The notes under the pieces are model-generated. The model worked only from the letters and a program-made list of their open reading frames with translations, ran no database searches and was not told the origin of the DNA. A stretch of DNA of 64,000 nt. It comes from Nitrospirota bacterium. Lineage in GTDB: Bacteria; Nitrospirota; Thermodesulfovibrionia; Thermodesulfovibrionales; UBA1546. Location: NCBI GenBank assembly GCA_016195565.1, contig JACPZK010000017.1, forward strand, positions 62,001-126,000, given 5' to 3'. The translations under genes and the position numbers were made by a program. Positions 37,792-46,969 of the stretch are shown here, one piece after another; position 1 is the first letter of the stretch; each line of letters begins with the position of its first letter.

Positions 37792-39084
37792 ATGTCTGAA
37801 CTAAAAAAGATGTACCGCACTATTATGGATGACAATTTCCCGGATGATATGACAATAAAATTAGGGAATCAGACACTCGTTTATAAAAAGCGTGCATGGA
37901 AGATTCCGGATGCAAGAACAGGCGAGGTTATAGAGAAGGGGTTGCGCTACGGCGAAAACCCTGACCAGCAGGCTGCCATTTATGAACTGGTAAACGGAAA
38001 TCTTGTCTTCGCTGGATGCGAGTATATCAATGCCGGAAACGGGCTTGTAAGCAGTATCACAGAAAAGGACATGATACAGGCAGGAAAACATCCGGGTAAA
38101 ACTAACATGACAGACCTTGATAATGGCTTAAACATACTAAAATATCTCACAAATAAACCTGCTGCTGTTATCTTGAAGCATAATAACCCATGCGGCGCAG
38201 CGCATGGGACAGACATTGCTGATGCATATGACAGGGCTAATATGGCAGACAGGATTGCCGCATTCGGTGGATGCCTTGTTGTAAACAGGCCGATGGATAA
38301 AAAAACAGCAGAAGCTGTTAACGAAAATTACCTTGAGGTTGTTGCAGCGCCTGATTTTGAAGAAGGCACTGTTGATATTCTCGCAAAAAGGAAGAATCTC
38401 AGGATTATAAGAGTCAAAAAAATCAATGAGCTTGAAAAATACAGGAACTTCCGTTTTGTTGATTTCAAGTCGTTGATTGACGGCGGTTTGATAGTCCAGC
38501 AGTCACAGTTAAGCAGGATAAAGTCAAAAGCTGATTTTCTTCCCGCAAAGACTGTATACAAGAACAAAGAATATGCCACAGAAAGGATGCCGACTGATAA
38601 AGAATATGAAGACATGATTTTCGGCTGGAGCGTTGAGATGGGCATTACATCGAACTCTGTCATCTATGTTAAAAACGGAGAGACAGTAGGTATCGGCACA
38701 GGAGAGCAGGACAGGGTGGGCGTTGCGGAGATTGCGGTATTCAAGGCATATACAAAATATGCGGATGCATTATGTTTTAAGAACTATGGAATCCCTTACA
38801 AGACCCTTGAGATGGAAGTTGCGCGAGGAGAGCGTGATGCAGGCCTGCTTCAGGAGATTGATGAAGAGACGAGGAAGAATAAAGGAGGGCTTATTGGCGC
38901 TGTGATGGTATCCGATGCGTTCTTCCCGTTCAGGGACGGAATTGAAGTAGGAATAAAGCAGGGAGTTACAGCAGTTGTCCAGCCCGGAGGCTCGGAGCGT
39001 GATTTTGAGGTTATTGAGGCGTGTAACGAAGCGAATCCAAAAGTGGCGATGGTATTTACAGGACAGAGGGTATTCAAGCATTAA
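37792..39084 (+). CDS. Stand-alone AICAR formyltransferase (PurH C-terminal-type domain)
   Basis: This 430-residue protein matches the AICAR transformylase half of PurH: LRYGENPDQQAAIY, VILKHNNPCGAA, AFGGCLVVNRP and a C-terminal QPGGSERDFEVIEACNE. It lacks the N-terminal IMP cyclohydrolase domain of normal PurH (about 200 residues); only about 45 unrelated residues precede RYGENP. It would formylate AICAR to FAICAR, using 10-formyl-THF that the Fhs encoded in this window could supply. GAGGAGG precedes the ATG. The cyclohydrolase must be supplied elsewhere. Confidence 0.88.
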   Translation: MSELKKMYRTIMDDNFPDDMTIKLGNQTLVYKKRAWKIPDARTGEVIEKGLRYGENPDQQAAIYELVNGNLVFAGCEYINAGNGLVSSITEKDMIQAGKHPGKTNMTDLDNGLNILKYLTNKPAAVILKHNNPCGAAHGTDIADAYDRANMADRIAAFGGCLVVNRPMDKKTAEAVNENYLEVVAAPDFEEGTVDILAKRKNLRIIRVKKINELEKYRNFRFVDFKSLIDGGLIVQQSQLSRIKSKADFLPAKTVYKNKEYATERMPTDKEYEDMIFGWSVEMGITSNSVIYVKNGETVGIGTGEQDRVGVAEIAVFKAYTKYADALCFKNYGIPYKTLEMEVARGERDAGLLQEIDEETRKNKGGLIGAVMVSDAFFPFRDGIEVGIKQGVTAVVQPGGSERDFEVIEACNEANPKVAMVFTGQRVFKH

Positions 39085-39113
39085 TATAAAATCACAAAAA
39101 AGGAGATTATAAA

Positions 39114-39596
39114 ATGGCAGAGACAAAGGCAGTAATAGAGACTAAATTCGGGAATATTGAGTTAAAGTTTTTCCCTGATGTTGCTCCCAATCACGTTAAT
39201 AATTTTACAGGGCTTGCAAAAAAAGGATTTTACGACGGCACGATATTCCACCGTGTTATTCCGGGTTTTATGATACAGGGAGGAGATCCAAATTCTAAAA
39301 GTCCTGACAAGTCAAAACATGGAATGGGAGGCCCCGGATATACGATTAAAGCTGAATTCAATAACATGCCGCATAAGAGAGGAACTCTCTCTGCTGCTCG
39401 GTCTGCAAATCCGGACAGTGCGGGCTCCCAGTTTTTCATCTGCGTTGCTGATGCGCCTTTCCTTGACAGGCAGTACACGGTATTTGGAGAGGTGGCCTCA
39501 GGCATGGATGCAGTGGACAGGATAGTGAACCAGCCAAGGGACGCACACGACAATCCTGATGAGAGGATTGAGATGAAGGTGAAAGTTGTGGAATAG
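39114..39596 (+). CDS. Cyclophilin-type peptidyl-prolyl cis-trans isomerase
   Basis: This 160-residue cyclophilin assists protein folding. It has IFHRVIPGFMIQGGDP, GTLSAARSANPDSAGSQFFI and VFGEVASGMDAVDRI. The shorter loops and the GPGYTIKAEF segment fit bacterial PpiA/PpiB types. No signal peptide is present, so it is cytosolic. AAAGGAG precedes the ATG. It follows the AICAR transformylase gene by 29 nt, probably in one transcript. Confidence 0.95.
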   Translation: MAETKAVIETKFGNIELKFFPDVAPNHVNNFTGLAKKGFYDGTIFHRVIPGFMIQGGDPNSKSPDKSKHGMGGPGYTIKAEFNNMPHKRGTLSAARSANPDSAGSQFFICVADAPFLDRQYTVFGEVASGMDAVDRIVNQPRDAHDNPDERIEMKVKVVE

Positions 39597-39649
39597 AGAT
39601 TTTTCAGCTTTTGAATTTTTGAACTATCGCGCTATGTGGGGCGGTGAGA

Positions 39650-39694
39650 GGGTAGTGGAAATATGAGACTCCACATCCCATATTTCCACTACCC
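39650..39694. repeat. Perfect 16-bp inverted repeat between convergent genes
   Basis: GGGTAGTGGAAATATG (39650-39665) and CATATTTCCACTACCC (39679-39694) pair perfectly around a 13-nt loop. It lies between the cyclophilin gene and the PstS-like gene, which converge, so a two-way terminator role is possible, but no T-run follows. The GTGGAAATAT arm also occurs at 40641-40650. Confidence 0.75.
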
Positions 39695-39744
39695 CCCTCC
39701 CGGATTAAACCCCGACTTTGGATACAGGCAGGCTCATTCTTTAT

Positions 39745-40539
39745 TTACTGCTTTATGTATCTCTGTCCTTCACCTTTAATGTAGTCAACGAGTTTAAGGG
39801 TATTTGGTGAGGGGTTACCTTTTGTAATCATAATTATCGGCCTTGATATTTCGGGTGTCTCGGGAGACTTAACGGTATCATCAACTATACCTGATGGGCC
39901 GATCCCGATTGCTCCCGGATTTGATGTTACTTTTTGCTTGATATCATCGGCTGTAGTGGCCTCAAGGATGTTTCCCTTTGGTGGATTGCCATCAAGGATG
40001 CGCTTTTCAAATAGACTGTTAGTTCCATGAATAAGTTTCCCCCAGACAACAGTAATGGGCATATCCTTTCCGCCGGCATCCTTCCAGTTTGTTATCTTTC
40101 CTGAAAAGATTCCCTTTAGCTGCTCCTGCGAGAGTTTTGAAACGGGGTTATTTTTATGGTGAATTACAACAATCATGTCCTTCCCGATTGTAATCTGCTG
40201 AAGTGATGCCATATCCTTCACTTTTGCTCCATCCTTCTCCATCAGGTCCATCCAGTCTTGGAGTGTGAGGCCTGCTGCTGCTGCATCTGTCAGGCCTCTA
40301 TCGAGGTCAATCAACGCATTCTTAGGCCCTGATGGTATAATGGTGAGTTTTATTCCGGTCGCCTTTTCGAATGGCTCCTTCACAGGCTTTAAAATATTCT
40401 CTACCGGTGCAGCCCCTGCGCCGATCTTTATCTCACTTCCAAGAGCATAAGTCCCAAGAACCATAATCATAATCATAACCATAACAACAGGAATTAAGCT
40501 GAATTTTAGCTTACTTACAAATTGACCAGGTATTAACAT
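39745..40539 (-). CDS. PstS-like phosphate/anion substrate-binding protein
   Basis: This 264-residue protein has an N-terminal signal/anchor helix (FSLIPVVMVMIMIMVLGTYA) and a type II periplasmic-binding fold of the PstS/PBP-like family: IKIGAGAAPVENIL, SGPKNALIDLDRGLTDAA, LSQEQLKGIFSGKITNWKD and SNPGAIGIGPSG. The LKGIFSGKITNW segment is a hallmark of PstS relatives. It may bind phosphate or another anion. There are no PstCAB genes nearby, so it could act in signalling or scavenging. ATG 40539 is chosen because AAAGGAGG lies 8 nt upstream. Confidence 0.88.
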   Translation of the reverse strand: MLIPGQFVSKLKFSLIPVVMVMIMIMVLGTYALGSEIKIGAGAAPVENILKPVKEPFEKATGIKLTIIPSGPKNALIDLDRGLTDAAAAGLTLQDWMDLMEKDGAKVKDMASLQQITIGKDMIVVIHHKNNPVSKLSQEQLKGIFSGKITNWKDAGGKDMPITVVWGKLIHGTNSLFEKRILDGNPPKGNILEATTADDIKQKVTSNPGAIGIGPSGIVDDTVKSPETPEISRPIIMITKGNPSPNTLKLVDYIKGEGQRYIKQ

Positions 40540-40681
40540 CTCATTTGCCTCCTTTGTTTTCAAAAAGTTAGAAAGTCAGGATTTATTTTTTCCTCAATCT
40601 TATTGACTTATTAAGGTGGACACCGTACCGGAACAAGCAAGTGGAAATATTCCCTCGAGGCCTTGATACAAAGGGGAGGTG

Positions 40682-40720
40682 GGGATATAAGCCCTGAATT
40701 TCCCTTTATACTTATATCCC
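40682..40720. repeat. Hairpin upstream of the PstS-like gene
   Basis: GGGATATAAG (40682-40691) and CTTATATCCC (40711-40720) pair perfectly with a 19-nt loop. It lies in the 229-bp gap between the small Cys-rich gene and the PstS-like gene. No T-run follows on either strand; role unknown. Confidence 0.55.
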
Positions 40721-40768
40721 TGTAAAATGGGAGGGAAGGCGCTAAGAAATTTATGTCTTTATGTTCTC

Positions 40769-40948
40769 TCATCTTGCATTGCTGAGAATAGACCTTTGGA
40801 ATTCATAATTGATGAGTTTCTCAGCTATGTAGAGCTTGCAGTGTTCATAGGGGTTGTTAGAATGGCAGAGACTTTTATCGGCACACTCGATATACCATGG
40901 TTCAATACCCACGACATCGCATACACCACCTCGCATCTTTTGGCACAT
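40769..40948 (-). CDS. 59-residue Cys-rich protein (previously easy to miss)
   Basis: I do not recognise a family. The small ORF begins MCQKMRGGVCDVVG, has five cysteines (2, 10, 22, 28, 37) and ends QRSILSNAR. The C-x5-C-x8-C block in ECADKSLCHSNNPYEHCKL could bind zinc or an Fe-S cluster, which is inference. It is supported by a strong AAAGGAGG 6 nt before the ATG and by its place 70 bp after the PilZ gene on the same strand, downstream of a sigma-54 promoter. The overlapping plus-strand ORF (40727-41047) lacks such support. Confidence 0.7.
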   Translation of the reverse strand: MCQKMRGGVCDVVGIEPWYIECADKSLCHSNNPYEHCKLYIAEKLINYEFQRSILSNAR

Positions 40949-41018
40949 ATAATTCCTCCTTTCAGTTTGAAACTTAATAAGTTGTTTACGATGTTCTATA
41001 GGTTAAACAAACTTTTCT

Positions 41019-41318
41019 TCATGCCAAAAACCTTAATCCCCCTCTGAGGTTCTCATCAGCGGGCTTGGACCACATTACCTCAGCATAAGCAGGCAACCTC
41101 GTTTCAACGTTATTAATCGGAAGATAGAGCTTTAAAATATCACCCTTCCTCAAGTCATAGTCTGTGGCGAGGCCTATACCCTCCGCGCTTATATCTACTC
41201 CAAGTCCATTTTGCTGAATATCCATAGATTGGCTGGTTTTTGTCGCGCATATTTCAAAGCTGACTGGTCTGTTAAAGCTTTGTCTCCCACTAGACCTTTT
41301 TTCTGATTTGTGTTCCAT
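41019..41318 (-). CDS. PilZ-domain protein under sigma-54 promoter
   Basis: This 99-residue PilZ-like domain has an N-terminal basic stretch with RQSFNR (RxxxR form), the DISAEGIGL motif (D-x-S-x-x-G) and a C-terminal strand GGLRFLA. It may bind cyclic di-GMP. GGGAGGG lies just before the ATG. A sigma-54 -24/-12 element lies about 50-60 bp upstream, and the neighbouring gene encodes a sigma-54 activator, so it is probably a target of that system. Confidence 0.85.
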   Translation of the reverse strand: MEHKSEKRSSGRQSFNRPVSFEICATKTSQSMDIQQNGLGVDISAEGIGLATDYDLRKGDILKLYLPINNVETRLPAYAEVMWSKPADENLRGGLRFLA

Positions 41319-41365
41319 ACCCCTCCCTTGGTATTAATGTTAAGCTAAGCTGCTTTTTCTTTATT

Positions 41366-41382
41366 AGCAAGAGGCATACCAA
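41366..41382 (-). promoter_or_regulatory. Sigma-54 (-24/-12) promoter of the PilZ operon
   Basis: On the minus strand the site reads TTGGTATG-CCTC-TTGCT. The GG at 41379-41380 and GC at 41367-41368 are separated by exactly 10 nt, as sigma-54 requires. It differs from consensus TTGGCACG-N4-TTGCT only by two C-to-T changes. Transcription would start near 41355, giving a leader of about 37 nt before the PilZ ATG. Confidence 0.75.
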
Positions 41383-41655
41383 AAGAAATAGTATCCTTTA
41401 AGTACTTGATTTTAAATTAGAATATTGTGATAGGCGTCTTAACCTTAAAGGGGCTTTTGTATGGATTTTCATGCAGTAGAGATTATGAGAATTGAATAAA
41501 AGATAGTCCTTTAGCAAGAAATTTTAAGGATAATCCATATGTATGGATTATCCTACATCTCAAAAACATTCTTTACTTTTACGTATCAAAAGAACTGAAT
41601 TATCTCATTTGAATGCTTATGAAAAGAACCTTATTAGCAATCCTGTATCTCATTT
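41383..41655. other. Regulatory gap between the response regulator and the PilZ promoter
   Basis: This AT-rich stretch holds no ORF of note. Its main feature is a near-perfect palindrome at 41528-41553 (separate entry). It fits a DNA-looping region between an enhancer and a sigma-54 promoter. Confidence 0.5.
41528..41553. promoter_or_regulatory. Palindromic enhancer-like site for the sigma-54 activator
   Basis: GGATAATCCATA and its exact complement TATGGATTATCC flank a 2-nt centre (TG). The site is centred about 185 bp upstream of the predicted sigma-54 start, a typical enhancer distance, and directly after the gene for the likely activator. That it is the activator's binding site is inference. 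Confidence 0.6.
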
Positions 41656-43017
41656 TCAAGTCTTCTTAAAGTTCTCAGGTTTGATGTCGTGTTTCTTAAA
41701 GAGGTTATAAAAATCAGCCCGATATTTTCCTGCCAGTGTTGCTGCTCTACTGACATTGCCTCTTGTAAGTTCAAGGAGGCGAAGGAGATATTCCCTTTCG
41801 AAGGCATCCCTTGCCTCCTTAAGGGGCTTTAATGGTTCCTGGACAATACCCTTTGTATGAAGGATCAGGTCATCGGTGATAACATCCTGCTGTGTCATGG
41901 CAACTGCATACTCGATGGTATTCTCCAGCTCCCGCACATTCCCTGGCCAGTCATAAAGCATGAGTTTCTGCATTGCCATAGGTGTCAGGCCCTTTATCTC
42001 CTTTTTCATCTGCCGGCTGAATATTTTTAAGAAATGGTCTACTAAAAGTGGGATATCTTCTTTTCTTTCTCTGAGAGAAGGCAGATAAATGGGAATGACA
42101 TGAATCCTGTAAAAGAGATCCTCTCGGAAAGAACCATTTTTGACCTCAGCCTCCAGGTCTTTATTTGTGGCTACGATGACCCTCACATCTATGTCTACTG
42201 GTTTTTGGCTCCCAACAGGATAGAACTGTCGCTCCTGAAGCACCCTTAATAGTTTAGCCTGAGTCAGAAGGGGCATATCACCAATTTCATCCAAGAATAT
42301 TGTGCCTCCAGCAGCATGGGCAAATAAACCCTTTGAATTTCGTATAGCGCCGGTAAAGGCCCCCTTCTCATAACCGAAGAGTTCGCTTTCGAGAAGTGTT
42401 TCAGGGATAGCAGCACAGTTTATAGCAACAAAGTGTTTGCCCTTCCTTTCGCTGGCAAGGTGGATGGCCATGGTAATGAGCTCCTTACCTGTGCCGCTTT
42501 CTCCATAGATATAAACAGTGGAGTCAGTGTTTGCAATGCGGGATATCTGCTCCAATACCCTCTGCATTCTTTGGCTTTTGGCCACGATGTTTTCAAAATC
42601 ATATCTCTCCTGCAGAAGCCCTTCAAGCCTTTTGACTTCAGAGGTTAGCCTGCGATTCTCCATGGCCCTTGCGACCTGTAGAAGAAGTTCTTGGGGACTA
42701 AAGGGTTTGGTGAGATAGTCAAAGGCCCCCTTTTTCATTGCCTCTACAGCGCTCTCAATACTTCCATGGGCAGTGAGTATGATGACAGGCATATCAGGGT
42801 TTATTAAATGTAACTCCTCCATCAATGATATACCGTCCCTGTGAACAAGCCTGAGGTCAATAATAGAAAGGTCAAAGGCCTCTTTTTTAACCTCCTCTAT
42901 CGCCTCATTTTCATTAAGTGCGGTGGCTACATCATAGTTTGCCGATTCAAGCCTCATCCTTATCAGTTCTAAGAGGTTACTATCATCATCCGCTACTAAT
43001 ATCTTTTTTGAAGACAT
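41656..43017 (-). CDS. Sigma-54-dependent response regulator (GlrR/QseF-like)
   Basis: The 453-residue NtrC-family protein has a receiver domain with phosphoacceptor Asp54 (SIIDLRLV) and KP in LTKPFSP, an AAA+ domain with Walker A GESGTGKE near residue 170 and the sigma-54 contact loop GAFTGA, and a C-terminal Fis-type helix-turn-helix. Upstream lie a lipoprotein gene and a histidine kinase gene in the order of glrK-qseG-glrR of enterobacteria. It probably activates the sigma-54 promoter just downstream of its own gene. Confidence 0.94.
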   Translation of the reverse strand: MSSKKILVADDDSNLLELIRMRLESANYDVATALNENEAIEEVKKEAFDLSIIDLRLVHRDGISLMEELHLINPDMPVIILTAHGSIESAVEAMKKGAFDYLTKPFSPQELLLQVARAMENRRLTSEVKRLEGLLQERYDFENIVAKSQRMQRVLEQISRIANTDSTVYIYGESGTGKELITMAIHLASERKGKHFVAINCAAIPETLLESELFGYEKGAFTGAIRNSKGLFAHAAGGTIFLDEIGDMPLLTQAKLLRVLQERQFYPVGSQKPVDIDVRVIVATNKDLEAEVKNGSFREDLFYRIHVIPIYLPSLRERKEDIPLLVDHFLKIFSRQMKKEIKGLTPMAMQKLMLYDWPGNVRELENTIEYAVAMTQQDVITDDLILHTKGIVQEPLKPLKEARDAFEREYLLRLLELTRGNVSRAATLAGKYRADFYNLFKKHDIKPENFKKT

Positions 43018-43021
43018 GACT

Positions 43022-43525
43022 TTAAAGCCCTTTCTTTTTTTCTTCTATCTCGATATCCACCTGCTGTGATTTCTGGATAGCCTTATTTAGTTCTCTGATA
43101 GTTTTATTTAATTCCTCATTCCCTTTGCTTAATTTCTCGTTCTCCTGTAGTATCCCTATCCAGATTTTGGCCTGCTCAACCAGAGGGCTCTGGGGATAGT
43201 CTTTAATCAGCCTTCTAAGGAAATTAAGAGAATTTTTATAGTCCTTTTTTGGATATTCAGAATGGGCATGAATAAGCCCCATGTTAAAAAGGGCCTCATC
43301 TCCAGGAGGGTTGTTATTAGAGAGAGATAAAGCCTTCCGGTTTTCTTTCAGAGAACCCTCGTAATCTCCCTGGACAAGGAGTTTTTGACTCCTAATAATA
43401 GATTCGCGCGCTTCTCTCCCATTTTCAATCTCCTTCAATGTAGCGCAACCAAGAAAGGATAGAAGTATCAGGCCGGTAATACAAAGATGAAAGTACTTCC
43501 ATGTCTTAATTCGCTTTCTACCCAA
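43022..43525 (-). CDS. QseG-like TPR lipoprotein
   Basis: The 167-residue protein has a lipoprotein signal (LCITGLILLSFLGC, Cys27), a TPR-like helical region (LVQGDYEGSLKENRKAL, DEALFNMGLIHAH) and a C-terminal coiled coil (NEKLSKGNEELNKTIRELNK). The place between a kinase and a sigma-54 regulator matches QseG (YfhG) of Escherichia coli, an envelope lipoprotein that interacts with the GlrK kinase. The start lies 58 nt inside the kinase gene in another frame; this start gives a full signal peptide. Confidence 0.85.
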   Translation of the reverse strand: MGRKRIKTWKYFHLCITGLILLSFLGCATLKEIENGREARESIIRSQKLLVQGDYEGSLKENRKALSLSNNNPPGDEALFNMGLIHAHSEYPKKDYKNSLNFLRRLIKDYPQSPLVEQAKIWIGILQENEKLSKGNEELNKTIRELNKAIQKSQQVDIEIEEKKKGL

Positions 43526-44916
43526 ACCTTACCTCCATGGGCTTTTATGATATGTTTAACAATGGCCAGCCCTAGGCCTGTTCCCTTGATTTTATTATAA
43601 CTTGTGATCATTGCCTGCTTAAATTTATCAAAGATTATGTTTAAATCCTCTCTTGGGACACCATGTCCAGTATCCGCCACAGAGACCTCCATGCCTTGCT
43701 CAACAGGTCTTGCAGATACCTTAACATGACCACCGTTGGGTGTAAATTTTATAGCATTCCCTATCAAATTCCGAAGTACCTGAAGTATCCTTTCACTGTC
43801 CATTTTGACAGTTGGTAATTCCTGCGTGATGTCCACTTTAAGACTTATATTTTTAGCCACCGCCAAGGGTTCTATTTCAGTAACAGCCCTATTTATCAGA
43901 GGCCTAATATCTGAGTCAGTAAAGTTGAATATCGCCATTCCAGCCTCCATCTTCGAAATATCCAGCAGGGAATTAACCAGGTCAATCACACGATTACTTT
44001 CTTCAGTGATGATTGTCAAAAGTCTTTTTTGTTTATCCGTAACCTCTCCTCCGATACCATCCCATAAGAGATTGCTCCCTTCCTTGATGGAGGCAAGGGG
44101 GGTACGCAGTTCATGGGCCATCAATGAGAAAAAATCCGACTTCATCTTATCCATCTCTTTAAGTTTATTGCACATAAGATTAAAGGCCTGTGCTAAATCT
44201 CGTATTTCGGGTGGAAAGGAAAGGCTTAAGTTACCCTCAAAATCCCCTCTTGCAATCTCTCCGGTCTTTTTCTTCATAAAAGAAAGTGGTCTGGTGATAC
44301 TTCTTGTAATAAAGATAGAGATTATGATTCCAAAAAGGAGAGTGCTTACAGTCATCATCATGGCCACTCTATGCGCCCTGGCTCCGGTCTCTCCCAGTCC
44401 TTTTATCTTTTCATAGGTATCTTGTTCGGTGTAGACCTTCAATCTCCTCAACTCTTCTATTATTCCATCCACAATCCTTTCTTTCTCTCCTCTATACGAA
44501 TTTTGAGGATAGTTTTTATCGGCCCTGACAAACCCTATTTCCTCATCAAAAAGAGATTTATAGTGTTGATGATAATCCTTTATCTTAAGCAATATATCTT
44601 TTTTATGGGCGGTGTCTGCTATGTATATTGCCTCATTAAGATATTGACTGAAATCCCTTTCAGCGAGCAGAAACTGGCTGTAAAGCGCAGCATCTTTTAT
44701 AATAATATATTTCCTCTCGTGCCTCACCTGTGACAGAAGAGAGTCTGTGAGCTTCTTTTCGTAGTCTCTCATTTTATTATCAGCGTCCAGCGTATAACGG
44801 GTAACCTGCTCAAATTGTTGTAACTGTAAAATGGTATATGCATTCACCGCCATAGCAGGAACAAATATGGCGAGATACACACTAATCAGCCGGGAAAATA
44901 TACTCAACCTTCTCAT
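43468..44916 (-). CDS. Sensor histidine kinase (GlrK/QseE-like)
   Basis: The 482-residue membrane kinase has a first helix (about residues 9-30), a periplasmic helical sensor domain (about 31-170), a second helix (about 180-200), a HAMP domain (SITRPLSFMKKKTGEIARG), an H-box HELRTPL with the phosphorylated His at about 267, N-box NLIGNAIKFTPNGG and G-boxes DTGHGV and GTGLGLAIV. It probably phosphorylates the sigma-54 regulator two genes downstream. The signal is unknown. GGAGGG lies 11 nt before the ATG. Confidence 0.94.
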   Translation of the reverse strand: MRRLSIFSRLISVYLAIFVPAMAVNAYTILQLQQFEQVTRYTLDADNKMRDYEKKLTDSLLSQVRHERKYIIIKDAALYSQFLLAERDFSQYLNEAIYIADTAHKKDILLKIKDYHQHYKSLFDEEIGFVRADKNYPQNSYRGEKERIVDGIIEELRRLKVYTEQDTYEKIKGLGETGARAHRVAMMMTVSTLLFGIIISIFITRSITRPLSFMKKKTGEIARGDFEGNLSLSFPPEIRDLAQAFNLMCNKLKEMDKMKSDFFSLMAHELRTPLASIKEGSNLLWDGIGGEVTDKQKRLLTIITEESNRVIDLVNSLLDISKMEAGMAIFNFTDSDIRPLINRAVTEIEPLAVAKNISLKVDITQELPTVKMDSERILQVLRNLIGNAIKFTPNGGHVKVSARPVEQGMEVSVADTGHGVPREDLNIIFDKFKQAMITSYNKIKGTGLGLAIVKHIIKAHGGKVWVESELRHGSTFIFVLPA

Positions 44917-45154
44917 GTTGTTATTATCCCTCCCTCAAGAAATTAGGCCATGTCCCTTTGAGTTGTTGAAGTAGGAAGCGGCCCCGGTTAAACTTAAATA
45001 ACCAAATCATGAGACTTCTCTGATTCACAGCAAAATTTCCCCTCAATATTAAAAGCTTTCAGCAATAATTGCAATAGAGGAAGGGGTCGGCTTACAACTA
45101 TCAGCCATAAACAGCAAAAATGGGGCTCAGGCCTTGAAGTGCGAAAGTGAATTT

Positions 45155-45188
45155 TAAAAAGCCTCCGGAAATTCCGGAGGCTTTTTAA
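45155..45188 (-). terminator. Rho-independent terminator of the formate operon
   Basis: AAAAAGCCTCCGGAA and ATTCCGGAGGCTTTTT form a near-perfect hairpin with A and T runs on both sides. It lies 18 nt downstream of fhs on the minus strand, and being symmetric could stop transcription both ways. Confidence 0.92.
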
Positions 45189-45205
45189 GTTTAATTTTTA
45201 ATCTC

Positions 45206-46969
45206 TTAGAACAATCCGCTGACCTTTCCGGTGTTCACATCCACATCAATCCTTCTGTATGCAGGGTCGGAACTTGTGCCGGGCATGAGGCTGATAGTGC
45301 CTGCGCAGGGGCAGAGGAATTTGGCGCCGGAGTAAATCAATATATCTCTGATGGGCAGCGTCCACCCTTTAGGAACTCCCTTGAGGGCAGGGTCGTGTGT
45401 AAGGCTCAAGTGGGTCTTGACCATCATGGTGGCGAAGTCCGCGTACTTGGGATCGTCTTCCAGCATCTTCGCCTTGGCTTCAGCTTCAGGCAGCCATGAG
45501 ACGCCGTCAGCGCCGTATACTTCTTTGGCGATGGTTGCTACGCGGTCGCGCAGCTTCATTTCTATAGGATACAGATATTTGAAGTCATTTTTTTGGTTGC
45601 AGGCGTCAATGACCGCATCGGCAAGTTCCAAAGCTCCCTCACCGCCCTTTAGCCAATGCTGGGATTCAGCGCAGCGGGCACCTGCTGCTTCAGCGGCTTT
45701 TTTGACAACAGCCACTTCAGCATTCGTGTCAGTATAAAAACGGTTGACGCAGACCACAGGGTTTATGCCGGACTTGCGGATAACATTAATCATGTGTATC
45801 ATGTTGGCGCAGCCTTTTTCTACCAGCGCTATATTTTCCTTTGTGTATTCTTCAGGCAGGGGCTTGCCGGCCACTACCTTGGGACCGCCGCCGTGCATCT
45901 TCAGGGCGCGGACCGTAGTGGTAAGCACGGATACGTGGGGTTTCAGCCCGCTGAAGCGGCACTTGACGTTCCAGAATTTTTCAAAACCGATGTCTGCCGC
46001 AAAACCGGATTCGGTCACATGGTAGTCGAACAATTTCAGTCCGACCCTGTCTGCTATGATTGAGGACTGGCCTACGGCAATGTTGGCAAAAGGCCCGGCA
46101 TGTACAAAGCAGGGGTTGTATTCAGCCGTGCACATGAGGGTTGGATTGATTGTATTGCGCATGAAGGCTGCCATGGCATTGCCGACTTCAAGATCGCCTG
46201 TGGTAACAGGTTTGCCGCTCTTATCAAAAGCAACTGTGATATTGTTCAGGCGCTGTTTCAGGTCAGCGAGGTCATTGGCTACTGAAAGAATTGCCATGCA
46301 CTCTGAGCCTACTGCGATACCGAACTTTGACTGCATCATAAAACCGTCCTGCCTGCCGCCGAGGCCGATGATTATATTGCGGAGGCTCTGGGCGCAAAAG
46401 TCCATTATCCATCCCATCTCCACGCGGGTAGGGTCTATGCCGAGCCGCCTCATCCTGGTGAGACGCTTCAACTGCTCATCGTTATAATTACGCTCGTGCT
46501 GCATACGGGATGTCATTGCTACCATGGCCAGGTTGTGGGCGTTCATGATGTCGTTGATGTCACCTGTGAGTCCCAATGAAAACTCGGTCATGGGAATCAG
46601 CAAAGAGTTGCCGCCGCCGGCAGCAGTGCCTTTTACGTTCATTGTGGGGCCGCCGGAAGGCTGACGCAGCGCTCCTCCAACGTTCACGCCGCGCTTGCCA
46701 AGTCCCTCCATCAAGCCGCACGATGTTGTGCTTTTGCCTTCGCCCAGAGGGGTCGGCGTGATGGCCGTTACCTCGATGTACTTGCCATCGGGCTTGTCTT
46801 TGAGACGATTGATGACCTTAAGAAAGTCAATTTTGGAGAGGCGTCCCATGGGGAGCATCTCGTCTTTTTGCAGACCGAGTTTCTCACGCCACTCTTCAGG
46901 TGAGGGCATATTTTTTTCAGCTTCTTCTGAAATCTGCCAGTCAGCTAACTTCGTTGCATCAAAGGCCAT
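45206..46969 (-). CDS. fhs: Formate-tetrahydrofolate ligase
   Basis: Fhs makes 10-formyl-THF from formate, ATP and THF, the second step of the methyl branch of the Wood-Ljungdahl pathway and an entry point of formate into C1 metabolism. The 587-residue protein has the ATP-binding [11 protein letters not shown] loop, [16 protein letters not shown] and [18 protein letters not shown] 46969 (MAFDATK) has AAGGAGG 9 nt upstream; the TTG at 46975 is not supported. It is the last gene of the formate dehydrogenase operon, so formate made or used by FDH is linked directly to folate. Confidence 0.97.

Follow-up and report, generated by a model that had tools for sequence, protein, structure and literature searches.

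The sigma-54 promoter that lies beside a kinase, lipoprotein and regulator operon in this 64-kb stretch of DNA (the window) raises the question of which activator would act on it, through which sites, and which products would be made in response. The initial annotation had described kinase, QseG-like and response-regulator genes, and these were found as described. They are arranged on the minus strand in the order of a QseEGF-like operon and comprise a QseE/GlrK-like sensor histidine kinase with HAMP-HisKA-HATPase domains (43468..44916; Pfam HisKA 1.1e-15, HATPase_c 4.6e-29), a QseG-like lipoprotein with weak TPR matches and the N-terminus MGRKRIKTWKYFHLCITGLILLSFLGC (43022..43525), and an NtrC-type response regulator (41656..43017), for which GlrR was the best NCBIfam model and whose recognition helix reads GKYRADFYNL. 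Of 56 loci checked, the window among them, 55 had a kinase homologue upstream of the regulator, and in most of the checked loci a gene with a similar signal/Cys N-terminus was present between the two. At three orthologous loci (L241, L242 and L252) the search for a lipoprotein gene in this position gave none, and the downstream activator site (UAS) and its linked promoter were also missing, possibly a joint loss.

The promoter, TTGGTATGCCTCTTGC, is located at 41367..41382 on the minus strand with a predicted start near 41355, and was the only match to the strict sigma-54 pattern when both strands of the window were scanned. It has the GG-N10-GC spacing, conserved -24 and -12 boxes and activator sites upstream, and it was aligned with 19 other promoters. 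As had been proposed, it reads into a PilZ gene, followed by a gene for a 59-aa protein and then a PBP_like_2/PstS-like gene. A single copy of rpoN was present in the genome.

Upstream of the promoter are two predicted activator sites on the plus strand, the distal UAS1 (TGTATGGATTATCCTACA, 41540..41557) and the proximal UAS2 (TGTATGGATTTTCATGCA, 41458..41475), at 175 and 93 bp respectively. Judged from these sequences, the operator is an 18-bp site of the TGTATG-N6-CATACA type, present in two copies 82 bp apart. UAS1 keeps to the TGTN12ACA frame, from which UAS2 deviates at a single base. An IHF consensus (AATCAAGTACTTA, 41399..41411, minus strand) lies between UAS2 and the promoter. A 26-bp palindrome, GGATAATCCATA-TG-TATGGATTATCC, had earlier been put forward as the operator. 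Its sequence and position (41528..41553, without an assigned strand) were exactly as given, and its distance from the promoter, about 150 to 185 bp depending on the ends chosen, agrees with the earlier figure of about 185 bp. The palindrome has only this one occurrence in the 2.3-Mb genome, and it shares bases with UAS1 and with an inverted half site. The repeated unit, however, was the 18-bp site, the second copy of which had not been listed. One further palindrome match, at L175 in a different genome of the order, lay inside a coding sequence reading as truB and was rejected for that reason.

A pattern-only scan of the genome with the UAS1 18-mer, allowing up to three mismatches, identified six places, of which two are the window sites, three are on contig C4 and one lies elsewhere. 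Five of the six fall within two cassettes. Among weaker UAS matches across the genome, no convincing promoter adjoined those that were checked. The C4 places are located 5' of a second sigma-54 promoter, TTGGCGTGCCTCTTGC. Over a stretch that begins ahead of UAS1 and runs to the ribosome-binding site, the C4 and window sequences shared 87% identity and differed in length by 22 bases at the palindrome. UAS2 was the identical 18-mer, the promoter GG and GC and the fixed IHF bases were unchanged, and the IHF consensus was matched exactly in both. The palindrome arms were retained on C4 with a longer spacer, which indicates that conservation does not extend to the 26-bp palindrome as a unit. The two cassettes are copies of each other rather than two independent observations. 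The C4 cassette reads into an exported-protein operon that includes one protein with Cys-rich repeats. A plasmid search gave no match.

Conservation in relatives was assessed at several depths. The best relative in the first whole-protein scan shared 66% identity with the regulator and members of its clade in the tree reached 75%. At E up to 1e-11, a search with the DNA-binding domain matched 157 of 396 same-phylum genomes, the phylum being presumably Nitrospirota, with some of these matches falling outside the clade; in the class of the L002 genome it matched 23 of 148 genomes at E up to 1e-10. The regulator had no close relative in the same-genus genomes searched, which are the closest relatives, so conservation is seen at order-to-phylum level only. 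In 41 loci of the same phylum with related regulators, window included, 39 UAS-like sites (at least 10 of the 12 fixed bases) were located within 1 kb after the regulator compared with a mean of 1.9 and a maximum of 6 for permuted motifs. A UAS 50 to 260 bp before a sigma-54 promoter was present in 21 of the 41 loci, while about half of the sampled loci had no UAS-promoter pair at the thresholds used. Where two sites were present, they were mostly 78 to 83 bp apart, and distances to the promoter had modes of about 174/94 and 184/103 bp, one helical turn apart. The arrangement of the promoter with its upstream 18-bp sites was conserved in relatives, while the 26-bp palindrome was not kept. Of 19 loci, 12 had the IHF consensus, with up to one mismatch, in the interval from UAS2 to the promoter, compared with 3.4 in shuffled sequences, none of 300 shuffles reaching 12, and it was mostly placed 43 to 57 bases past UAS2; thresholds and set-up of both the UAS and IHF scans were chosen after the first examples had been seen. 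In the class of the L002 genome the TGTATG motif was rare and a TGTAGG..CCTGC-like variant was present in few loci only. In L002 itself, the regulator is followed by two sigma-54-like promoters (1814 and 2456), which precede genes for a receiver protein and for an OmpA-like lipoprotein; TGTAGG..CCTGC palindromes lie close to them.

The placement of the regulator was examined with curated models and a tree of 102 sequences built by a quick method with a midpoint root. The regulator scored 479 bits against the GlrR/QseF model NF011695 (cut-off 763) and 431 bits against the PEP-CTERM-box response regulator model TIGR02915 (cut-off 502.6), a family which is also NtrC-type and which matched less well than GlrR. 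In the tree, the window sequence belonged to a clade of 49 rows (SH-aLRT 99) and the GlrR sequences to a separate one of 24 rows (100); a clade of 83 rows (99) contained both and left 19 other NtrC-type regulators outside. Recognition helices were RNRT(D/E)FY in the GlrR rows and KYRADFY or close variants in the clade of the window. All 31 TGTC-N10-GACA sites in the GlrR loci were located upstream of sigma-54-like sites, and the TGTA-N10-TACA form occurred there once, whereas loci from the window's clade within its own phylum contained 22 TGTA-N10-TACA sites, 20 of them upstream of promoters, and two TGTC-N10-GACA sites. The window sites are of the TGTA type and not of the GlrR/QseF TGTC type. 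On this comparison, helix and operator have changed together, RNRT occurring with TGTC..GACA and KYRA with TGTA..TACA; that the helix change brought about the operator change, or the reverse, would be a further step of interpretation. At four loci with the helix GRYRADFY (L268, L270, L272 and L273), UAS-like sites were located about 3.5 kb before the regulator end, near the start of the operon and not downstream.

The nearest described system is QseE-QseG-QseF (GlrK-QseG-GlrR) of the Enterobacteriaceae, in which, as in the window, a kinase, a lipoprotein and an NtrC-type regulator share one operon, and several sites in the TGTN12ACA frame, IHF and a sigma-54 promoter adjoin it (PMC6075780). 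QseF binds TGTN12ACA with the help of IHF and activates sigma-54 promoters (PMC6075780), and GlrK/GlrR has been assigned to Nitrospira by KEGG taxonomy (PMC8895600). The window differs in the clade, recognition helix and operator of its regulator, and while glmY is located upstream of the enterobacterial operon, the window promoter is downstream of the operon and reads into protein genes. Other proteobacterial GlrR systems (L006, L010, L017, L018, L020, L022, L024, L046 and L048) share the gene order and a promoter directly after glrR with the window, but have BON, EF-hand or other exported proteins as outputs and TGTC-N10-GACA operators where a site was found. Outside the Enterobacteria, the GlrR promoter was often directly downstream of glrR and drove periplasmic BON or EF-hand proteins; at five proteobacterial GlrR loci (L017, L018, L020, L046 and L048) the sigma-54-like promoter just past glrR led to a BON-type periplasmic protein. 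BON-type envelope proteins were recurrent adjacent outputs in both the GlrR clade and the clade of the window.

The candidate outputs of the window are all encoded on the minus strand, and the PilZ, 59-residue Cys-rich and possible PstS-like genes were found where they had been annotated. The PilZ protein (99 aa, 41019..41318; Pfam PilZ 2.3e-8) carries both c-di-GMP motifs in alignment, RxxxR as R8-S-S-G-R12 and [DN]xSxxG as D42-I-S-A-E-G47, and would by motif be a c-di-GMP-type effector. A PDB sequence search with the PilZ protein gave no match, and an AlphaFold model of PilZ alone was discarded at a pLDDT of 41. A PilZ paralogue with 96% identity is located at C22:29100-29396 (L326 5101-5400), where the upstream DNA is without the cassette. 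The similarity of this paralogue to the window begins at the ribosome-binding site, just at the point at which the C4 cassette ceases to match, and its neighbours are, by sequence reading only, an acyl-CoA synthetase and a polysaccharide-glycosyltransferase-like gene. The Cys-rich protein (59 aa, 40769..40948) was assigned from its homologues and neighbours to a pst-linked family; 14 of 296 same-phylum genomes, the organism's own among them, carried a homologue. Two further copies in the organism's own genome, at C16:11114-11674 (L131 6106-6705), are just upstream of a PstS-PstC-PstA-PhoU-like cluster, and homologues in other genomes adjoin phosphate-selective porins (L135, L136 and L137), so a phosphate link of the window operon is plausible. 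The PstS-like periplasmic binding protein (39745..40563), a possible distal gene of the operon, matched PBP_like_2 (1.4e-27) and scored 89.5 bits against the curated model ptsS_2, below its cut-off of 206.6. No terminator-like site was found on the minus strand between the PilZ and PstS-like genes by a simple scan, and Rfam gave no match over 39000-45500, hence no known GlmY-like RNA there.

Genes following the promoter in relatives encoded, among others, BON lipoproteins, exported proteins of the FN3-like type and small Cys-rich proteins belonging to two other families; in one type of output, an exported protein preceded a FeeM/GNAT-type enzyme. A PilZ output was seen in no other of the orthologous loci examined. 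Small Cys-rich genes of the SLCNCC and CDPCC types were located downstream of the regulator at eight loci (L248, L249, L255, L257, L264, and L238, L246, L251) and are candidate first output genes of the orthologous systems; the one tested had no Pfam match. The initial annotation had suggested that the output here would be new for this system. The reading of the promoter into PilZ and a Cys-rich gene was supported, but not a single exceptional rewiring, since outputs vary by locus. This variation, together with the BON and EF-hand genes driven by GlrR promoters outside the Enterobacteria, suggests that GlmY is one output among several.

From the observed sequences, conservation, spacing and helix-operator co-variation we infer binding, phosphorylation, transcription and a sensed signal as follows. 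The lipoprotein and kinase would sense an envelope condition, leading to phosphorylation of the regulator, which would then bind the two 18-bp sites, some 93 and 175 bp before the promoter. IHF would bend the DNA between the sites and the promoter, the regulator would drive sigma-54 open-complex formation, and the PilZ and Cys-rich proteins, perhaps with the PstS-like one, would be made. Very probably, then, the locus encodes an envelope-sensing, three-component switch of the QseEGF kind, acting through its own sites, IHF and a sigma-54 promoter on these genes.

Other readings of the locus were weighed against this switch. It is improbable that the promoter and sites serve another NtrC-type regulator and are near this regulator gene by accident. 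Ten other places in the genome match the regulator at E up to 1e-100 and other NtrC-type activators are, by these matches, present, but the sites directly follow the orthologous regulator gene in many genomes and track the recognition helix across clades. The palindrome could instead end transcription of the regulator operon or form a hairpin in its mRNA, with no operator role, as it folds well on both strands (-19.4 and -16.3 kcal/mol, z about -4.5) and is located about 100 bp past the regulator stop codon. We give this little credence, in that no T run follows the palindrome, the terminator scan did not return it, and relatives retain the 18-bp sites at a fixed distance from the promoter and not the 26-bp hairpin, although the hairpin and operator roles could coexist.

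A further reading takes the system for GlrK/QseG/GlrR itself, acting on a new target. The three-gene order, the sigma-54 and IHF layout and the best NCBIfam model all agree with it, and the annotated layout and three-gene operon beside the promoter stand. The identification with GlrR does not: the model score is under its cut-off, the separate clade has an SH-aLRT of 99, and recognition helix and operator both differ. We therefore regard this reading as very unlikely, and the regulator is, as judged by sequence, not GlrR proper but a member of a separate clade with another helix and another operator.

The switch proposed here thus appears as a conserved variant of a QseEGF-like system with a changed operator and exchangeable outputs. 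As read from the genomes compared, the regulator clade, operator, spacing and IHF site recur across many related genomes while the targets differ by locus. We lean slightly towards a wider interpretation, in which helix and operator switched together within the superclade and a fixed cassette beside the regulator (two sites about 80 bp apart, an IHF site and a sigma-54 promoter) has had its outputs exchanged between lineages and even been copied within a genome, here tying envelope sensing to a c-di-GMP effector and a Cys-rich family of phosphate-uptake loci. The literature searched contained no paper on QseF with BON proteins and none on the operator described here, and the three-component-system clade is apparently without an earlier description; a predicted operator, geometry and target set are now supplied for it. 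The clade would also provide a natural experiment on change of DNA specificity in an activator, with a few helix residues set against one base pair per half site, and it suggests that the enterobacterial control of a small RNA by GlrR is one output among many.
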